Shown: positions 15,689 through 54,468 of the stretch, in pieces
How positions within the stretch are numbered: the first letter of the stretch is position 1
Layout of the letters: every line of letters begins with the position of its first letter
Assembly: GCA_021413845.1 (NCBI GenBank)
Contig: JAIOPP010000133.1
Span: forward strand, 1 to 64,000
Source of the DNA: Planctomycetia bacterium
GTDB taxonomy: Bacteria; Planctomycetota; Planctomycetia; Pirellulales; PNKZ01
Length of the DNA stretch: 64,000 bases
Reading direction: 5' to 3'
Position numbers and translations under genes: made by a program
Notes under the pieces: generated by a model
Databases searched by the model: none
Told to the model about the DNA's origin: nothing
The model's input: only the letters and a program-made list of their open reading frames with translations

Positions 15689-17038
15689 ATGGTCCGCTCC
15701 CGCAGCCTTGCGCGCATCGCCTTGCTCGTCGTCGGCATCGCTTCGCTGGCGACGCTCGGCGGCTGCGCCACGTATGCCGATCGCCTGACCGAAGTGCGCG
15801 ACGCCTTCGGCACCGGCAACATCGCCGCCACCGAAGAGACGCTCGAAGTCGGTATGAAGCGCCGCTGCGATCGCAACGTGCTGACGCTCGATCGGGCCGT
15901 CGTGCAGCTCTCGGCCGGCCAAGCGAAGGAAGCCGAGCAAGGGCTCCGCGCGATGCGCGACAAGTTCGACCATCTCGAAAAGCCGGCCGTCGGCGAGAAG
16001 GCGCTGTCGATGCTCACCGACGCGCAGTCGGAAGCCTATGCCGGCGAAGACTACGAGAAGGTGTTGATCCGCGTGTTTCTTTGTCTCGCGAACTTGATGA
16101 CCGACGGGCAAGACGTCGGCGCGTATGCGTATCAAGTCGCGGAGAAGCAGCAGCAGCTCATCCACGCGGCGACCGAATCCGACGGCACCAACCCGAAAGC
16201 GAACTACCATCGCGTCGCCTTCGGAGCTTATCTCAACGGCGCGATTCGCGAACAGACGCACGCCGACTTCGACGACGTCGAGCGCTCGTGCGCCGTCGTC
16301 TGTAGTTGGGAGCCGGAGTTTCCCTATGCGCAGCAAGACCTCGAACGGGCCCGATACGGCAAGCACTCGCAGCCGGGCAACGGCGTGCTGTACGTGATCA
16401 CGCTCGTCGGCGTCGGCCCTTATAAGGAAGAAGTTTACGAAGAGGCCTCGACTATCTCGCTCCTGATCGCCGATCGCATCTTGAGCGTGCTCGGCAATCA
16501 GACTTTGCCGCCGACGATTGCGCCGGTGAAAGTGCCGCGCGTCGTGTTGACGCCGCACGAAGTCGGCGCGATCGACGTTCGGGTCAACGGCTTTCAAGTC
16601 GGCCGGACGGCGACGATCACCGATATCGGTCGGATGGCGGTCGAGCAACATGAAGCGGTTTACGACCGGATCGTCGCCGAAGCGGTCGTGCGGCGGATCG
16701 TGAAGAAGGGAGTCGTGTACGGCACGAAGGAAGCGCTCGGGATCGAGAAGAATTCGCTCCCCGGCTTCGCGCTCGACGTCGTCGGCGTCGCTTGGGAAGC
16801 GAGCGAGTCGGCCGATACGCGCTGCTGGGGCTTGCTGCCCGACAAGATCCAAGTGCTCCGCGTCGAGTTGCCGGCCGGCACGCACGACATCACGCTGCAA
16901 TCGCAAATGACCTCCGGCCTGCCGCTCGGTCGACCGTCGAACGCGCAAGTCGAAATCGCCGACGGCCGCAACAGCTTTATGCTCGCCAACTTCCCCCTCG
17001 GCAACCTCGCCGGCACGATCTCGACCAGCAAGCAATAA
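15689..17038 (+). CDS. Lipoprotein, COG3014-like
   Basis: This 449-residue protein has a lipoprotein signal (hydrophobic core, lipobox LGGC). The first half is helical and TPR-like (ATEETLEVGMKRRCDRN, AGQAKEAEQGLRAMRDKFD). The middle contains VLYVITLVGVGPYKEE and the second half is mixed alpha/beta. The layout and the immediate LpoB-like neighbour match COG3014 proteins, an uncharacterised lipoprotein family that travels with LpoB homologues; I recall this association from gammaproteobacteria and did not test it. The two genes are probably one operon. The stop codon is immediately followed by the first REP-type repeat, which may act as the transcript end. Confidence 0.65.
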   Translation: MVRSRSLARIALLVVGIASLATLGGCATYADRLTEVRDAFGTGNIAATEETLEVGMKRRCDRNVLTLDRAVVQLSAGQAKEAEQGLRAMRDKFDHLEKPAVGEKALSMLTDAQSEAYAGEDYEKVLIRVFLCLANLMTDGQDVGAYAYQVAEKQQQLIHAATESDGTNPKANYHRVAFGAYLNGAIREQTHADFDDVERSCAVVCSWEPEFPYAQQDLERARYGKHSQPGNGVLYVITLVGVGPYKEEVYEEASTISLLIADRILSVLGNQTLPPTIAPVKVPRVVLTPHEVGAIDVRVNGFQVGRTATITDIGRMAVEQHEAVYDRIVAEAVVRRIVKKGVVYGTKEALGIEKNSLPGFALDVVGVAWEASESADTRCWGLLPDKIQVLRVELPAGTHDITLQSQMTSGLPLGRPSNAQVEIADGRNSFMLANFPLGNLAGTISTSKQ

Positions 17039-17226
17039 AGTAGCAGGCACGTTCCACGTGCCGTAGCCGCACGAAGCTTTGAAGCTAAGTGCAGCATCGC
17101 GACGCACGCAGCCTCTGTCCACACGCAGCTCCGTTCAATAGCCCCGGATGCATATCCGGGGCCGTACCGCGATGATCGTTCCGTATCGTTCGTGGCGGAC
17201 GGCACGTGAAACGTGCCTGCTACTTT
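17038..17226. repeat. REP-type composite element, copy 1
   Basis: The 189 bp element is bounded by inverted ends of about 30 bp. The left end (17038-17068) has AAGTAGCA followed by the perfect hairpin GGCACGT-TCC-ACGTGCC; the right end (17197-17226) is its near-perfect reverse complement. The interior holds a perfect 8-4-8 palindrome, CCCCGGATGCATATCCGGGG, at 17142-17161. GTAG just before a short hairpin is the signature of REPs moved by RAYT (Y1 tyrosine) transposases. The element begins on the stop codon of the lipoprotein gene. Confidence 0.85.
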
Positions 17227-17836
17227 GCAGACATGGCCCAATTCTTCGCGTTGAAGTTCGCGGCGCTTAGTGCGATGTTGAACCGCGTGAGGAGACGAGA
17301 CTCCGACCTCCGGTAGGTTTCGACGCGTTGCTTGTCTATGCGAGACCGGCAACGACGAATCGCGATGGGGAATTTTTAGCCACGGCCGCGCCGCTTGTCG
17401 CCGCCGTGGTTGGAACGAATCGAGCGCTAAGCTTGGTCCCTTGCGACGATGGTCGATCGAACGATTGTTGTGAAGACGATCGCTCGATGTCTCTTTCCGG
17501 CCTGCGGTGCGTGCGGGTTTGCTTCGGCGAATGATCACGCATCGCGATCCTCGGTCGTCTTGCGTTCGTGGATGAAACGCGAGGCGACAGCCAACGAGGA
17601 TTGAATTTGCACGACGTTCTCTGCGAAGTTGCAACATCGCAAAGAACGCTTCGCTGCCCTGGGCGTCGTCCGGTGCGTCGTCGCGCGAGCCAGTCTTTCT
17701 TCATGCGAAGCAAGCCGGTTCGGGCGGAATGCTCTGCGTAGAGAATCGTTTGACAAGATGCCCAAGCCCGCTCGGGCGACGACGCACGAATGTTTTTCAA
17801 GTCGCAAGCCGGCGCGATTATGGCTGTGCTTTGTTT
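17227..17836. other. Gene-free segment between two REP-type elements
   Basis: This 610 bp stretch has open frames on both strands but none with a convincing start, codon pattern or recognisable motif; they are rich in Arg and Ser as expected for chance frames in GC-rich DNA. Local inverted repeats occur (for example around CGATCGAACGATTGTTGTGAAGACGATCG near 17454-17487) without a terminator-like T run. It could be the scar of a lost gene or a structured RNA, but nothing positive supports either. Confidence 0.4.
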
Positions 17837-18008
17837 AAGTAGCAGGCACGTTCCACGTGCCGTCAGCCACAGCTGATAGAGAACGATCGTTACGGTGCGG
17901 CCCCGGATATGCATCCGGGACTATTGAACGGAGCTGAACGTGTCGCGATCGTGCGTCGTGCTCGAAAGACGCACATGGCTACGGCACGTGGAACGTGCCT
18001 GCTACTTT
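17837..18008. repeat. REP-type composite element, copy 2 (inverted relative to copy 1)
   Basis: This 172 bp element has the same ends as copy 1: AAGTAGCA plus the GGCACGT/ACGTGCC hairpin on the left (17837-17868) and the reverse complement on the right, ending at 18008. Its interior palindrome CCCGGATATGCATCCGGG (17902-17919) is followed by CTATTGAACGGAGCT, which is the reverse complement of the sequence just left of the palindrome in copy 1. The two copies therefore lie in opposite orientation. It ends five bases from the stop codon of the minus-strand dienelactone hydrolase gene. Confidence 0.85.
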
Positions 18009-18012
18009 CAAA

Positions 18013-18873
18013 CTACACGCCGTTTTGCTTGAACCAAGCTAGGGCCCGTTTCCAGCCGTCGTCCGCTTTGTCTTTTCGATAGGTCGGGCGGTAGTCGGCG
18101 TGGAAGCCGTGCGGGGTGTCCGGATAGAGCACGATCTCGCTCGGCTTGCCCGCCGCTTTGATCGCCGCTTGCATCTTCTCGACGCTCTCGACCGGAATGC
18201 CCGTGTCGGCGGCGCCGTAGAGCCCGAGCACGGGTGCTTTCAATTCGCCGGCAAGATCCAGAGGATGCTTCGGATGCAAGGCGTCGACCGCGCTCGTCAG
18301 CCTGCCGTACCACGCAACGCCGGCCTTCAACTTCGAACTATGAGCCGAATAGAGCCACACGATTCGTCCGCCCCAGCAGAAGCCGGTGATGCCGAGCTTG
18401 TCGACGTTCCCTTTGCCCGACTTCGCGGCCCAAGCGACCGTCGCGTCGAGGTCCGCCAGCACTTGGGCGTCGGGCACTTTCGACACGACCGAAGCGATGA
18501 TCTTTTGAATGTCGGTCTCTTTCGAGACGTCGCCTTGGCGCGCATACAACTCCGGCGCGACGGCCAAGTAGCCGAGCTTCGCAAACCGGCGGCAGACGTC
18601 TTTGATGTGCTCATGCACGCCGAAAATCTCTTGCACGACGAGCACCGTCGGGAACGAGTCTCCCTTGGCCGGCCGCGCTTGATAGGCCGGAATCTCGCCG
18701 TCGGCGACCGGGATCTTCACTTCGCCGGCTTCGAGATCCGCGGTGTCGGTCGTGATCGTCTCGGCTGCGACCGGTTGCACGGCCAGCGCGAAGCCGGTCG
18801 CCAACGTCGTAACGACGAACTCGCGGCGACTCCAAGCGAAGTTCGGAACCAAGCTCGTCAGATCGTCGTGCAG
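18013..18873 (-). CDS. Dienelactone hydrolase family protein, Tat-exported
   Basis: The family hydrolyses cyclic and other esters. The nucleophile is the Cys in GFCWGG (Cys166), supported by QEIFG (Glu82), GAADTGIP (Asp) and TPHGFHAD (His), the dienelactone hydrolase set. The N-terminus has SRREFVV and a hydrophobic run, a twin-arginine signal. No ATG lies in a good place; a CTG at 18873 sits six bases after GAGGAG and gives 286 residues, whereas a GTG at 18942 has no ribosome site. I prefer the CTG, with moderate certainty. The gene converges on the REP-bounded region and stands alone, with the SulP-carbonic anhydrase gene 138 bp upstream on the same strand. Confidence 0.82.
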
Positions 18874-19011
18874 CGTGTTCTCCTCGAAGGGGGGCGTGCG
18901 CTGGGAAGCGTGACGTATCGAGCGGCATTTTACACGCCGCACGCGCGAAGAAAAGCAGCCGGCGTGAGTTCGCCGGCGATATCAACACGCAACGGCTCAG
19001 CGCGCGAGGTT

Positions 19012-21270
19012 TCAGCGCGCAAGGTCCAACGCTTCGTCGACGACGCTTTCGTTCACGAACTCGATATCGCCGGTCGCGACATCGTACATCGCACCGACGA
19101 TCGCAATCCGCCCCGCGCGAATCAACGGGCCGAGCGTGTCGCTTTCCCGTTGGATCTGCTCGACCATCCGCAAGACGTTCATTCGTGCGACTTGATTGAT
19201 GAACGCTTCTTGATCGGTATGCGAACAGCGATCGAACTCGCGGCCGTGGTCGTAGTCGATCGATTCCTGAATGCTGCGCAAGATCGGCTCGGCATGTTGG
19301 CAGCCGGGCCCTTGCGGAGGGGCCTCGCCGGCAAACGCGGTTCGCACGGCCAACGTCACGGCTCCGCAGCGCGTGTGCCCCATCACGAGAATCAGCTTCG
19401 CGCCGGCGACGGCACAGCCGTATTCCAAGCTACCGAGAATCTTGCGGCTCGTAATGTTTCCCGCCACGCGCACGTTGAACACATCGCCGATGCCGGTATC
19501 GAATACCAGCTCGGCCGACGAGCGCGAGTCCATGCAGCTGAGCACGACGGCCAACGGATGCTGCCCATGCGCCGTTTCGTGAACCTGCCGGCTGAAGTCG
19601 CGCGTCAACGGTCGGCCGTTGCGGAAGCGCTCGTTGCCGTCTTTGAGAATCTGCAACACCTGCGCGGGAGTGAGCGAAGCTTGCAGCTCGCGCGTCGAAT
19701 GGTCGAGGTACTGGATCCGATCTTCGAGGTGATACTTCGCGCGAAAGCCGAGCATGCTCACTTCGATTTTACGCACCGGAGCGGTTTGCTCGGAGAAGTG
19801 GCGGATCAGGTCGAGCACGTCGGGATCGATGTAGTGCGTGTTGCGTGCATCGAGCAGCAGCTGTCCGCCGCGCGGAATCGAATCGAGCGCCTGCGACAAC
19901 GCCGCCCGATTCAAGAAGCTCACTTGATTTGCGAGCTCGATATGAATCACGTTGCCGCCGAGTTGCTTCTCGACGAATCGCCGAATCGGCCGGCGCAGGT
20001 TGCTGCTGAGAATGAAGCTGAGGCTCACGCCGAGGCCGATGAGCATGCCGATCAACAGGTCGGTCGTGACGATCGCGACGACCGTCACGGCGAACGGAAT
20101 GAACTGATACTTGCCGTCGCGCCACATCTGCTTCATCGTCGACGGGCCGGCGAGCCGCACCCCGGTGATGAACAAAATCGCCGCCAAACAGGAGAGCGGA
20201 ATGAGGTTCAACCACGCGGGCAACAACGATACGCAGACCAGCAAGAACAAGCCGTGCGTGATCGCCGCGAGTTTCGTTTGGCCGCCGGAGTTGATATTCA
20301 GCGAACTGCGCACGATGACCGACGACACCGGAATGCCGCCGAGAAAACCGACCGCGATGTTGCCGACCCCTTGGGCGAGCAGTTCGCGATTCGTCGGCGA
20401 GGTCCGCTGCTTCGGATCGATCTTATCGATCGCTTCCAAGTTCAACAACGTTTCGAGCGACACGACCAACGCGATCGCGAGGCCCGCCATGTAAACCTTG
20501 GGATTCATCCACTGCGAGAAGTCGGGCCAATGGAGAAACGTCGCGAACTCCGCTGCGTTCGTCGTCACGGGAACCTGCACCAAATGGTTGCCGCCGACTC
20601 CCCAGTTGCCGCCGAAAGTGTTGAGCAACATGTTCATGCCGACGCCGAGCAACACCACGACCAGCGGCGCGGGAAACGGCGATTGCTTCAATCGCGGAAC
20701 CTTGTCCCAAAGAAACAAGAGCGCTACCGACGTGAGGCCGATCACCGTTGCGCCGGGATGAAAGCCGAGCAACTCGCCGAGTTCGGAGAACGTGTTCTCC
20801 TGATCGGGCTGGAAGAACGCCATATTCCCTTCGGGATCGGAGTCGAGCCCGAAGAGGTGAGGGATCTGCTTGAGAATGAGAATGATCCCGATCGCAGCGA
20901 GCAAACCTTTGATCACCCCCGACGGTACGAACTCGGAAACGACACCGGCCCGCAAGAGCCCGAGGATGATTTGAATCACTCCCGCCACGATGACCGCGAG
21001 CAGAAACGTCTCGAAGCTGCCGAGCAGCGCGATCTGCGCCACGACGACCGCCGCGCTGCCGGGCGAAGGACCGCTGATGCTCGTATGCGATCCGCTCAAG
21101 AAGCCGACGAGAATTCCGCCGACGACGCCGGCGATGAGACCGGAGATCAACGGCGCGTTCGAAGAGAGCGCGACCCCCAAACACAACGGCAAGGCGACGA
21201 AAAACACGACCAATCCCGCCGTGAGATCGCGGCCGATGGTGTCGCGTGAAAACATACGGGTATCGGGCAT
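19012..21270 (-). CDS. SulP-type anion transporter fused to beta-carbonic anhydrase
   Basis: The 752-residue protein starts at an ATG at 21270, eight bases after GAGGAG; a TTG two codons earlier is less likely. Residues about 15-420 are a SulP transporter with many membrane spans (TAGLVVFFVALPLCLGVALS, SGSHTSISGPSPGSAAVV). A STAS domain follows at about 440-530. From about 565 on it is a beta-carbonic anhydrase with the zinc and active-site motifs SCMDSR (near 580) and GHTRCGA (near 635). Such fusions are thought to couple bicarbonate uptake with CO2 interconversion, which points to bicarbonate rather than sulfate as the cargo. It diverges from the thiol peroxidase gene. Confidence 0.93.
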   Translation of the reverse strand: MPDTRMFSRDTIGRDLTAGLVVFFVALPLCLGVALSSNAPLISGLIAGVVGGILVGFLSGSHTSISGPSPGSAAVVVAQIALLGSFETFLLAVIVAGVIQIILGLLRAGVVSEFVPSGVIKGLLAAIGIILILKQIPHLFGLDSDPEGNMAFFQPDQENTFSELGELLGFHPGATVIGLTSVALLFLWDKVPRLKQSPFPAPLVVVLLGVGMNMLLNTFGGNWGVGGNHLVQVPVTTNAAEFATFLHWPDFSQWMNPKVYMAGLAIALVVSLETLLNLEAIDKIDPKQRTSPTNRELLAQGVGNIAVGFLGGIPVSSVIVRSSLNINSGGQTKLAAITHGLFLLVCVSLLPAWLNLIPLSCLAAILFITGVRLAGPSTMKQMWRDGKYQFIPFAVTVVAIVTTDLLIGMLIGLGVSLSFILSSNLRRPIRRFVEKQLGGNVIHIELANQVSFLNRAALSQALDSIPRGGQLLLDARNTHYIDPDVLDLIRHFSEQTAPVRKIEVSMLGFRAKYHLEDRIQYLDHSTRELQASLTPAQVLQILKDGNERFRNGRPLTRDFSRQVHETAHGQHPLAVVLSCMDSRSSAELVFDTGIGDVFNVRVAGNITSRKILGSLEYGCAVAGAKLILVMGHTRCGAVTLAVRTAFAGEAPPQGPGCQHAEPILRSIQESIDYDHGREFDRCSHTDQEAFINQVARMNVLRMVEQIQRESDTLGPLIRAGRIAIVGAMYDVATGDIEFVNESVVDEALDLAR

Positions 21271-21663
21271 CAGCAACTCTCCTCAGACGAACGCTGCCCG
21301 ACGGCGAACCGGATGGCGGCAGGGGATCGAATCCATCCGGCGGTCGGGCTATTGTCGCGACGACCCACGGTCGCCGCGAACCTACGGAACCTGTCTTACC
21401 GGACTGTAATTATTACAGTTTCGTAATGTTTGTAGAATGCAGAAAACGGCTGAAATCAAGCTATTTTTACGACATACCCGTATACATGGGTGGTAAACAT
21501 TAAGGAATCGCCCACCATCGTCGGAGCCGCGGCAAATCGGAGCTCTGCCGAACCGTGCGGGCATATTGAACCTGAGACCGATATCGGGATACTGAACCGC
21601 CTCATTTGCAGAGTGCTGCAAGCCCGTACGTTTCCATTCGTATTCAGAGTAAGGACCACGATC
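21271..21663. other. Divergent intergenic region, SulP-CA / tpx
   Basis: About 390 bp, clearly more AT-rich in 21400-21490 than the surroundings, so promoters for both genes are likely here. It contains the perfect inverted repeat described separately. No coding potential is convincing; an open frame leading into tpx from 21490 lacks a better start than the ATG at 21664. Confidence 0.5.
21403..21419. promoter_or_regulatory. Candidate operator, perfect 8-1-8 palindrome
   Basis: The sequence ACTGTAATTATTACAGT is a perfect inverted repeat with one central base. The core TGTAAT-n-ATTACA has the 7-1-7 layout of binding sites for Fur-superfamily repressors such as PerR and Zur. It lies 133 bp upstream of the SulP-carbonic anhydrase start and 245 bp upstream of tpx. 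A peroxide- or zinc-sensing repressor would make sense here, but the regulator is an inference. Confidence 0.5.
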
Positions 21664-54356: not shown

Positions 54357-54468
54357 AAGTAGCAGGCACGTTCCACGTGCCGTAGCCACAAGCGTCGTTC
54401 TCTCACGAAGCCGTATTGCGCTCGTAAGTCTTGTAGGCGGACGGCACGTGGAACGTGCCTGCTACTTT
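54357..54468. repeat. REP-type composite element, copy 3 (short)
   Basis: This 112 bp element has the same ends as the copies at 17038 and 17837: AAGTAGCA plus GGCACGT-TCC-ACGTGCC on the left (54357-54387) and the reverse complement on the right (ending 54468). The interior differs and lacks the central CCGGAT palindrome. It sits between two divergent genes. Confidence 0.85.

Follow-up and report, generated by a model that had tools for sequence, protein, structure and literature searches.

REPs are among the commonest bacterial repeats and, to our knowledge, how RAYTs spread them is still unresolved. Those mobilised by RAYTs carry a GTAG tetranucleotide 5' of a short hairpin, occur in high copy number, as inverted doublets (REPINs or BIMEs), and have a cognate RAYT gene (TnpA-REP) with the same ends; all of these features are matched at the locus described here (PMC3116915, PMC3733652, PMC8266576). 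Published REPIN units, however, are single doublets that measure from some tens of bp up to about 110 bp, whereas at this locus a structured RNA of 600 bp lies between two doublets and seems to have been dispersed together with them. REPtrons, in which a RAYT gene lies between REPs, reportedly do not move as single units (PMC6006769). We find the same layout at C67 and C167 of the genome under study (G000) and at C246 of a second genome, G004, where, in addition, a structured RNA immediately precedes the RAYT gene in the same orientation.

Two other groups invite comparison. The large ornate bacterial RNAs OLE, GOLLD and ROOL resemble the RNA described below in length (about 0.5-0.8 kb), in their many helices and covariation, and in having a function that no protein product explains (PMC12286853). 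Unlike them, our RNA has no Rfam match, is present in dozens of copies per genome, and lies beside REPs rather than in phage tRNA islands. The IS200/IS605 elements with their TnpB/IscB guide RNAs (omega RNA, HEARO) likewise combine Y1 HUH chemistry with a non-coding RNA in a mobile element. Yet our RNA has no HEARO match in Rfam and is bounded by REPINs, and a general look at the contexts inspected showed no nuclease gene. In the open-access literature we found no report of a RAYT-associated structured RNA or of an RNA cargo.

The framing REPINs and their RAYT genes

The window, by which we mean the whole stretch of 64,000 nucleotides that was analysed, contains the following features, those with no direction of their own being marked as unstranded:

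15689-17038, + strand: flanking gene of 449 aa without Pfam match, the TAA stop codon of which overlaps the left REP
17037-18009, unstranded: whole composite REPIN-RNA-REPIN, one hairpin as single-stranded DNA, with the REPINs pairing mutually
17038-17226, unstranded: REPIN/BIME on the left, in which a linker of 134 nt, containing a CCGGAT palindrome, separates two GTAG REPs in inverted orientation (17038-17064 on +, 17199-17226 on -)
17233-17833, + strand: structured-RNA core (TGGCC...GGCYGTGC), here one of its many copies, with covarying structure and no conserved frame
17251-17279, + strand: putative promoter-like boxes, TTGAAG - 17 nt - GATGTT
17660-17800, + strand: conserved 3' domain (covariance models R1 and R3), also present in genomes G003, G004 and G006
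17673-17797, + strand: putative terminator-like 3' end, made up of a long closing helix that pairs 17673-17690 with 17770-17787 and, after it, a T run at 17793-17797
17837-18008, unstranded: REPIN/BIME on the right, in the opposite orientation to its left counterpart (REPs at 17837-17863, +, and 17981-18008, -)
18013-18942, - strand: flanking gene for a dienelactone hydrolase, with 4 nt between its 3' end and the right REP
54359-54465, unstranded: third REPIN of the same family, of a short type

The composite entirely fills the space between the 3' ends of the two convergent genes. Beyond the hydrolase gene, a long ORF on the minus strand (19012-21276) seems, by eye, to encode a fusion of a SulP-type transporter and a carbonic anhydrase.

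A preliminary description of this DNA had proposed two elements here, in opposite orientations, with identical ends and a central CCGGAT palindrome in common. Our comparison bears this out: the left REPIN is 73% identical to the reverse complement of the right one, against 53% when the two are compared directly, and the arms 17126-17225 and 17837-17936 are 87% complementary over 100 nt. The REP ends, of 27-28 nt, consist of AAGTAGCA and a perfect 7-3-7 hairpin, GGCACGT-TCC-ACGTGCC, with GTAG-CA preceding the hairpin at four places, and are alike save for one loop base in one of the four (GTTTCAC at 17199-17226). Since each element is a doublet of inverted REPs around a linker, that is, a REPIN or BIME, four REPs frame the segment between them.

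The end sequence is not a product of chance, given that its pattern has six matches in the window and none in 100 shuffles, and that the 7.08-Mb genome holds 142 exact copies on dozens of contigs against none of a reversed control. With a tetranucleotide 5' of a short hairpin and a high, dispersed copy number, the family belongs to the GTAG class of REPs. No copy was found in 56 other genomes, three of the same genus among them.

Six Y1_Tnp genes are present in the genome. One of these, at C67:64016-64237, has REPINs with identical ends on both sides and contains the motifs NHVH, WQ and YIAENP; as a Y1 HUH gene between the same REPs, it is a RAYT in a REPtron. NCBIfam assigns it to the REP_Tyr_transpos family (REP-associated tyrosine transposase) with E 2e-17, below the curated cut-off. 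The cut-off of the relevant model, NF047646, is 80 bits, and the RAYT scores are 63.3 and 67.7 bits (E 2e-17 and 1e-18), with no better family; the Pfam Y1_Tnp cut-off is passed. Apart from that missed NCBIfam cut-off, the elements are REPs, REPINs and RAYTs in every respect compared. C167 holds a second RAYT gene, which lies between copies of its own REP, a related variant (GTTGCAGGCACGCTCCGCGTGCC) that is present beside the older RNA copies C61 and C150 as well. The preliminary description had held that a lack of further copies, or of a Y1-type transposase gene with matching flanks, would speak against mobilisation by a RAYT; given the 142 copies and the C67 gene with its matching REPINs, neither objection applies.

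Several further observations concern the REPs and Y1 genes of this genome. The REPINs adjacent to the C67 RAYT (L086) are asymmetric (GTAGCAGG ... CCTACTAC), and so is the right REPIN of each of the old RNA copies C161, C42, C129 and C150, while the REPINs of young RNA copies are symmetric (CCTGCTAC). Y1 transposase genes at G000:C6 (L034 900-2000) and G003:C1 (L166 1415/2133) are bounded alike by inverted ends of the sequence AAAGTAGAATGTCCCC, which form a separate family from the GTAGCAGG REPs; as these ends are common to two species, this family is more IS-like. An IS200-like Y1_Tnp gene at G000:C116:10620-10976 (L032) has one in-frame TAG. At G000:C90:77850-78700 (L097), a small antitoxin-like ORF has duplicated stretches on both sides, each containing a REPIN and its flank.

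A dispersed structured RNA between the REPINs

The framed segment of 610 bp had been called gene-free, and a cargo, a scar or an RNA had been suggested. It does lack a protein gene; it is not empty, however, but a copy of a dispersed structured-RNA repeat. Searched alone against its own genome by BLAST, the segment gives 21 matches of at least 70% identity (range 70-92%) that span much of its length. The genome contains more than 20 copies, at least 16 of them full-length (70-93% identical) and others truncated, and covariance model R3 finds 24 matches to the 3' domain at E <= 1e-15. Among the 16 full-length copies that we aligned, ten show 85-93% mutual identity and six, which are older, about 70-77%. 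Many contigs end inside the repeat, as is expected of a repeat, and its boundary usually falls exactly at the REPs. The outer flanks of the 16 copies have the REPINs in common and are otherwise unrelated, on which ground we rejected segmental duplication as the cause of dispersal; nor does any protein neighbour recur. No reading frame is open across all 16 copies and the segment has no Pfam match, so a protein-coding segment was likewise rejected.

The consensus structure comprises 168 pairs in 24 helices, and 95.4% of its cells pair. Pairs with double changes number 39, compared with 20.0±2.6 in shuffles, and the covariation score is 0.204, compared with 0.145±0.004 in shuffles and at most 0.068 in controls with slid partners. 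Covariation beyond both the shuffled and the shifted controls supports the reading of the segment as a structured non-coding RNA. G-U cells (337) far exceed A-C cells (33), from which it follows that the plus strand is the folded one. Among young copies, variation is half as frequent at paired sites as at unpaired ones (21% against 43%). Judged by this comparison of copies, the fold appears to be under selection; the RNA is well supported by comparative evidence, with its transcription predicted.

The promoter-like boxes at 17251-17279 are near invariant in the 16 copies, their spacer varying in sequence and fixed in length; a simple consensus promoter scan did not call them. Together with the terminator-like 3' end, they suggest a transcript of about 510 nt, roughly from 17286 to 17797. 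In the outermost helices of the core (17233-17290 with 17790-17833), the promoter-like region is paired with bases that lie past the T run. These helices extend the REPIN-REPIN stem in single-stranded DNA and are at odds with the predicted start and end of the RNA. Part of the outer-helix pairing, beyond the predicted transcript, may be selected in DNA.

The RNA in other genomes

BLAST detected no homologue in 56 relatives, the two matches of 33-36 nt in G007 and G025 being unsupported by the covariance model. Model R1, built on the 3' domain, finds one copy in G003 (same genus), at least five in G004 and eight in G006 (both of the same family); one weak R1 match in G034 was not confirmed by R3. 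Aligned across G000, G003 and G006, the 3' domain has a covariation score of 0.362 against 0.135±0.014 in shuffles, with none of 500 shuffles as high. The 5'-domain model gave no convincing matches in relatives, and homology beyond the source genome therefore rests on the 3' domain and common motifs such as CCGCTTRT, which lies in the 5' half in G000, G004 and G006.

The RNA has no match in G001, G002, G005 or the sampled remainder of the phylum, and among 392 genomes of the phylum that were searched only G000 and G003 were positive. A motif scan of 85,000 genomes gave five unrelated matches, about the number that we estimate for chance. In viral contigs the motif scan found none, and one other match was not supported by the model; phage and plasmid collections contained no match to the RNA. 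None of the 4227 Rfam families gave a meaningful match to the window region or to ten further loci, the relatives' copies included; the families compared take in OLE, GOLLD, ROOL, HEARO and the group II intron, and a known RNA was accordingly rejected. By the tests applied this is a new RNA family, the transcription of which is predicted.

In both G006 and G003 the RNA lies without an adjacent REPIN of the G000 kind. A different promoter-like box is conserved at the RNA copies of G006. Some of these copies have other palindromes at a distance of up to about 120 nt, from which we draw nothing. A shorter RNA at G006:C7 (L131 1248-1640), of about 380 nt, shares the promoter-like box CTTGAAATTNGGCCGGCCT and resembles the others in its 3' domain; it is possibly a second RNA class of the family.

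Seven of the eight RNA copies in G004 are followed, 1-14 nt after the T run, by a GTATCC REP (GTATCCATCACG-CTCCGT-CGTGATG) that is unrelated in sequence to the G000 REP. This REP has 17 copies genome-wide, at least nine of them at RNA copies, and the sequence that follows the RNA's T run is replaced by the REPIN. The eighth RNA copy is the one directly upstream of the C246 RAYT gene and on the same strand; that gene has its own, third type of REP on both sides. From these arrangements one might read the RNA as a working partner of the RAYT rather than a passenger, in a Y1-transposase system, mobile or domesticated, that has a large structured RNA among its components, the 3' end of the RNA being kept beside the cognate REP while the REP sequences turn over between genera. 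We regard such a partnership as a tentative idea and rather doubtful.

Probable dispersal of the composite and competing explanations

At five loci (C133, C117, C111, C5 and C39) BLAST matches the whole composite over its full or nearly full length. The inner junctions are common between copies, the left being TACTT|TGGCC or TTGNAGACA|TGGCC and the right GTGCTTTGTTTAAGTAG. Wherever it is present, the right REPIN lies 48-55 nt, and once 73 nt, downstream of the conserved 3' motif; young copies show offsets of 48-51 nt, old ones of 53-73 nt. Four copies have a long REPIN at either end, and in each of them the two REPINs are mutually inverted. Common inner junctions, a steady right offset and unrelated outer flanks fit movement as one unit. 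As single-stranded DNA the composite folds into a single hairpin through REPIN-REPIN pairing (z = -20), and the same pairing is found in five other composites; such a hairpin would suit an enzyme of the Y1 type, which cleaves REP hairpins in single-stranded DNA (PMC8266576).

We therefore think it fairly probable that a new large structured RNA gene family, with predicted transcription, is the cargo of REPIN-bounded composites mobilised in trans by a RAYT. Among the earlier guesses of cargo, scar or RNA, we thus favour an RNA that is also cargo. The core of about 600 bp would carry an RNA transcribed from its own promoter, and a RAYT encoded elsewhere would cut the outermost GTAG hairpins of single-stranded DNA and move the whole unit, folded into one large hairpin. 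Some activity of the RNA would keep its fold under selection. REPIN-RNA-REPIN would then be a composite non-autonomous element that has spread to many sites in G000. Dispersal of the three parts as a composite is likely; that a RAYT mobilises it is what we infer.

Several results speak against this explanation. Mantel comparisons of the REPINs of the two sides with the RNA phylogeny gave r of -0.12, 0.13 and 0.47 (P of 0.59, 0.30 and 0.08), hence no significant congruence. The old copies C42 and C129 are without a left REPIN, C34 is without a right one and C69 without both. These REPIN-poor copies, and the RNAs of G006 and G003 without such flanks, indicate that the RNA can exist and spread without REPINs. 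BIMEs also frame ordinary genes (C67:83551-84923), and the published statement that REPtrons do not transpose as units (PMC6006769) points the same way. The relatives compared do not preserve the gene order seen around this locus, and we found no empty site for the composite.

The main rival to the composite reading is that the RNA disperses by other means and REPINs insert beside it, its 3' end perhaps being a favoured RAYT landing site, so that the relation is one of targeting rather than cargo. The copies without flanking REPINs (in G000, C69 on both sides, and C42 and C129 on the left; also those of G006 and G003) fit this explanation, as do REPIN types that do not track the RNA tree and right junctions that differ in sequence and length among old G000 copies. 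So does G004, where a different REP stands close after the T run and, in one copy, a REP-RAYT-REP unit lies there. Nevertheless, young copies that share both inner junctions in unrelated outer flanks fit movement of a unit, and the mutual inversion of the REPINs in the four copies that have a long REPIN at either end also tells against this rival. We consider the landing-site explanation possible but unlikely.

Two further explanations dispense with a functional RNA. The segment could be a structured DNA element, in effect a large MITE, with its fold selected in single-stranded DNA for transposition; the strong folding of the whole composite agrees with this, as do the outermost helices (2 and 4), which extend the REPIN stem and show some compensatory changes. 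We nonetheless judge it improbable, given the promoter-like boxes with their variable spacer of fixed length, the different promoter-like box conserved in G006, the terminator-like 3' end conserved across genera, and a multibranched fold with near-invariant loops that is far more elaborate than a MITE stem. Moreover, because a REPIN takes the place of the sequence after the T run in G004, the outer helices are not universal. That the segment is a protein-coding remnant or the scar of an insertion sequence is most improbable of all: a 192-aa ORF does lie on the minus strand of the window copy (17336-17914), but the similar ORFs in other copies look like chance ones, no frame or Pfam match unites the copies, and covariation exceeds that of every shuffle.

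On the composite reading, the locus likely extends REP/RAYT systems by an RNA-carrying form. The RNA is also present next to hairpins of this kind in one further genus at least, suggesting a mobile element with RNA, not protein, as its load. A REPIN-bounded unit with a large conserved RNA would, if true, widen what the REP/RAYT system can move. The RNA family itself is large, structured and absent from Rfam, and its dozens of copies in one genome, with a fold apparently under selection, make copy-to-copy comparison and genetics possible. The adjacency of RNA and RAYT in a second genus, in turn, makes a functional link between them testable.
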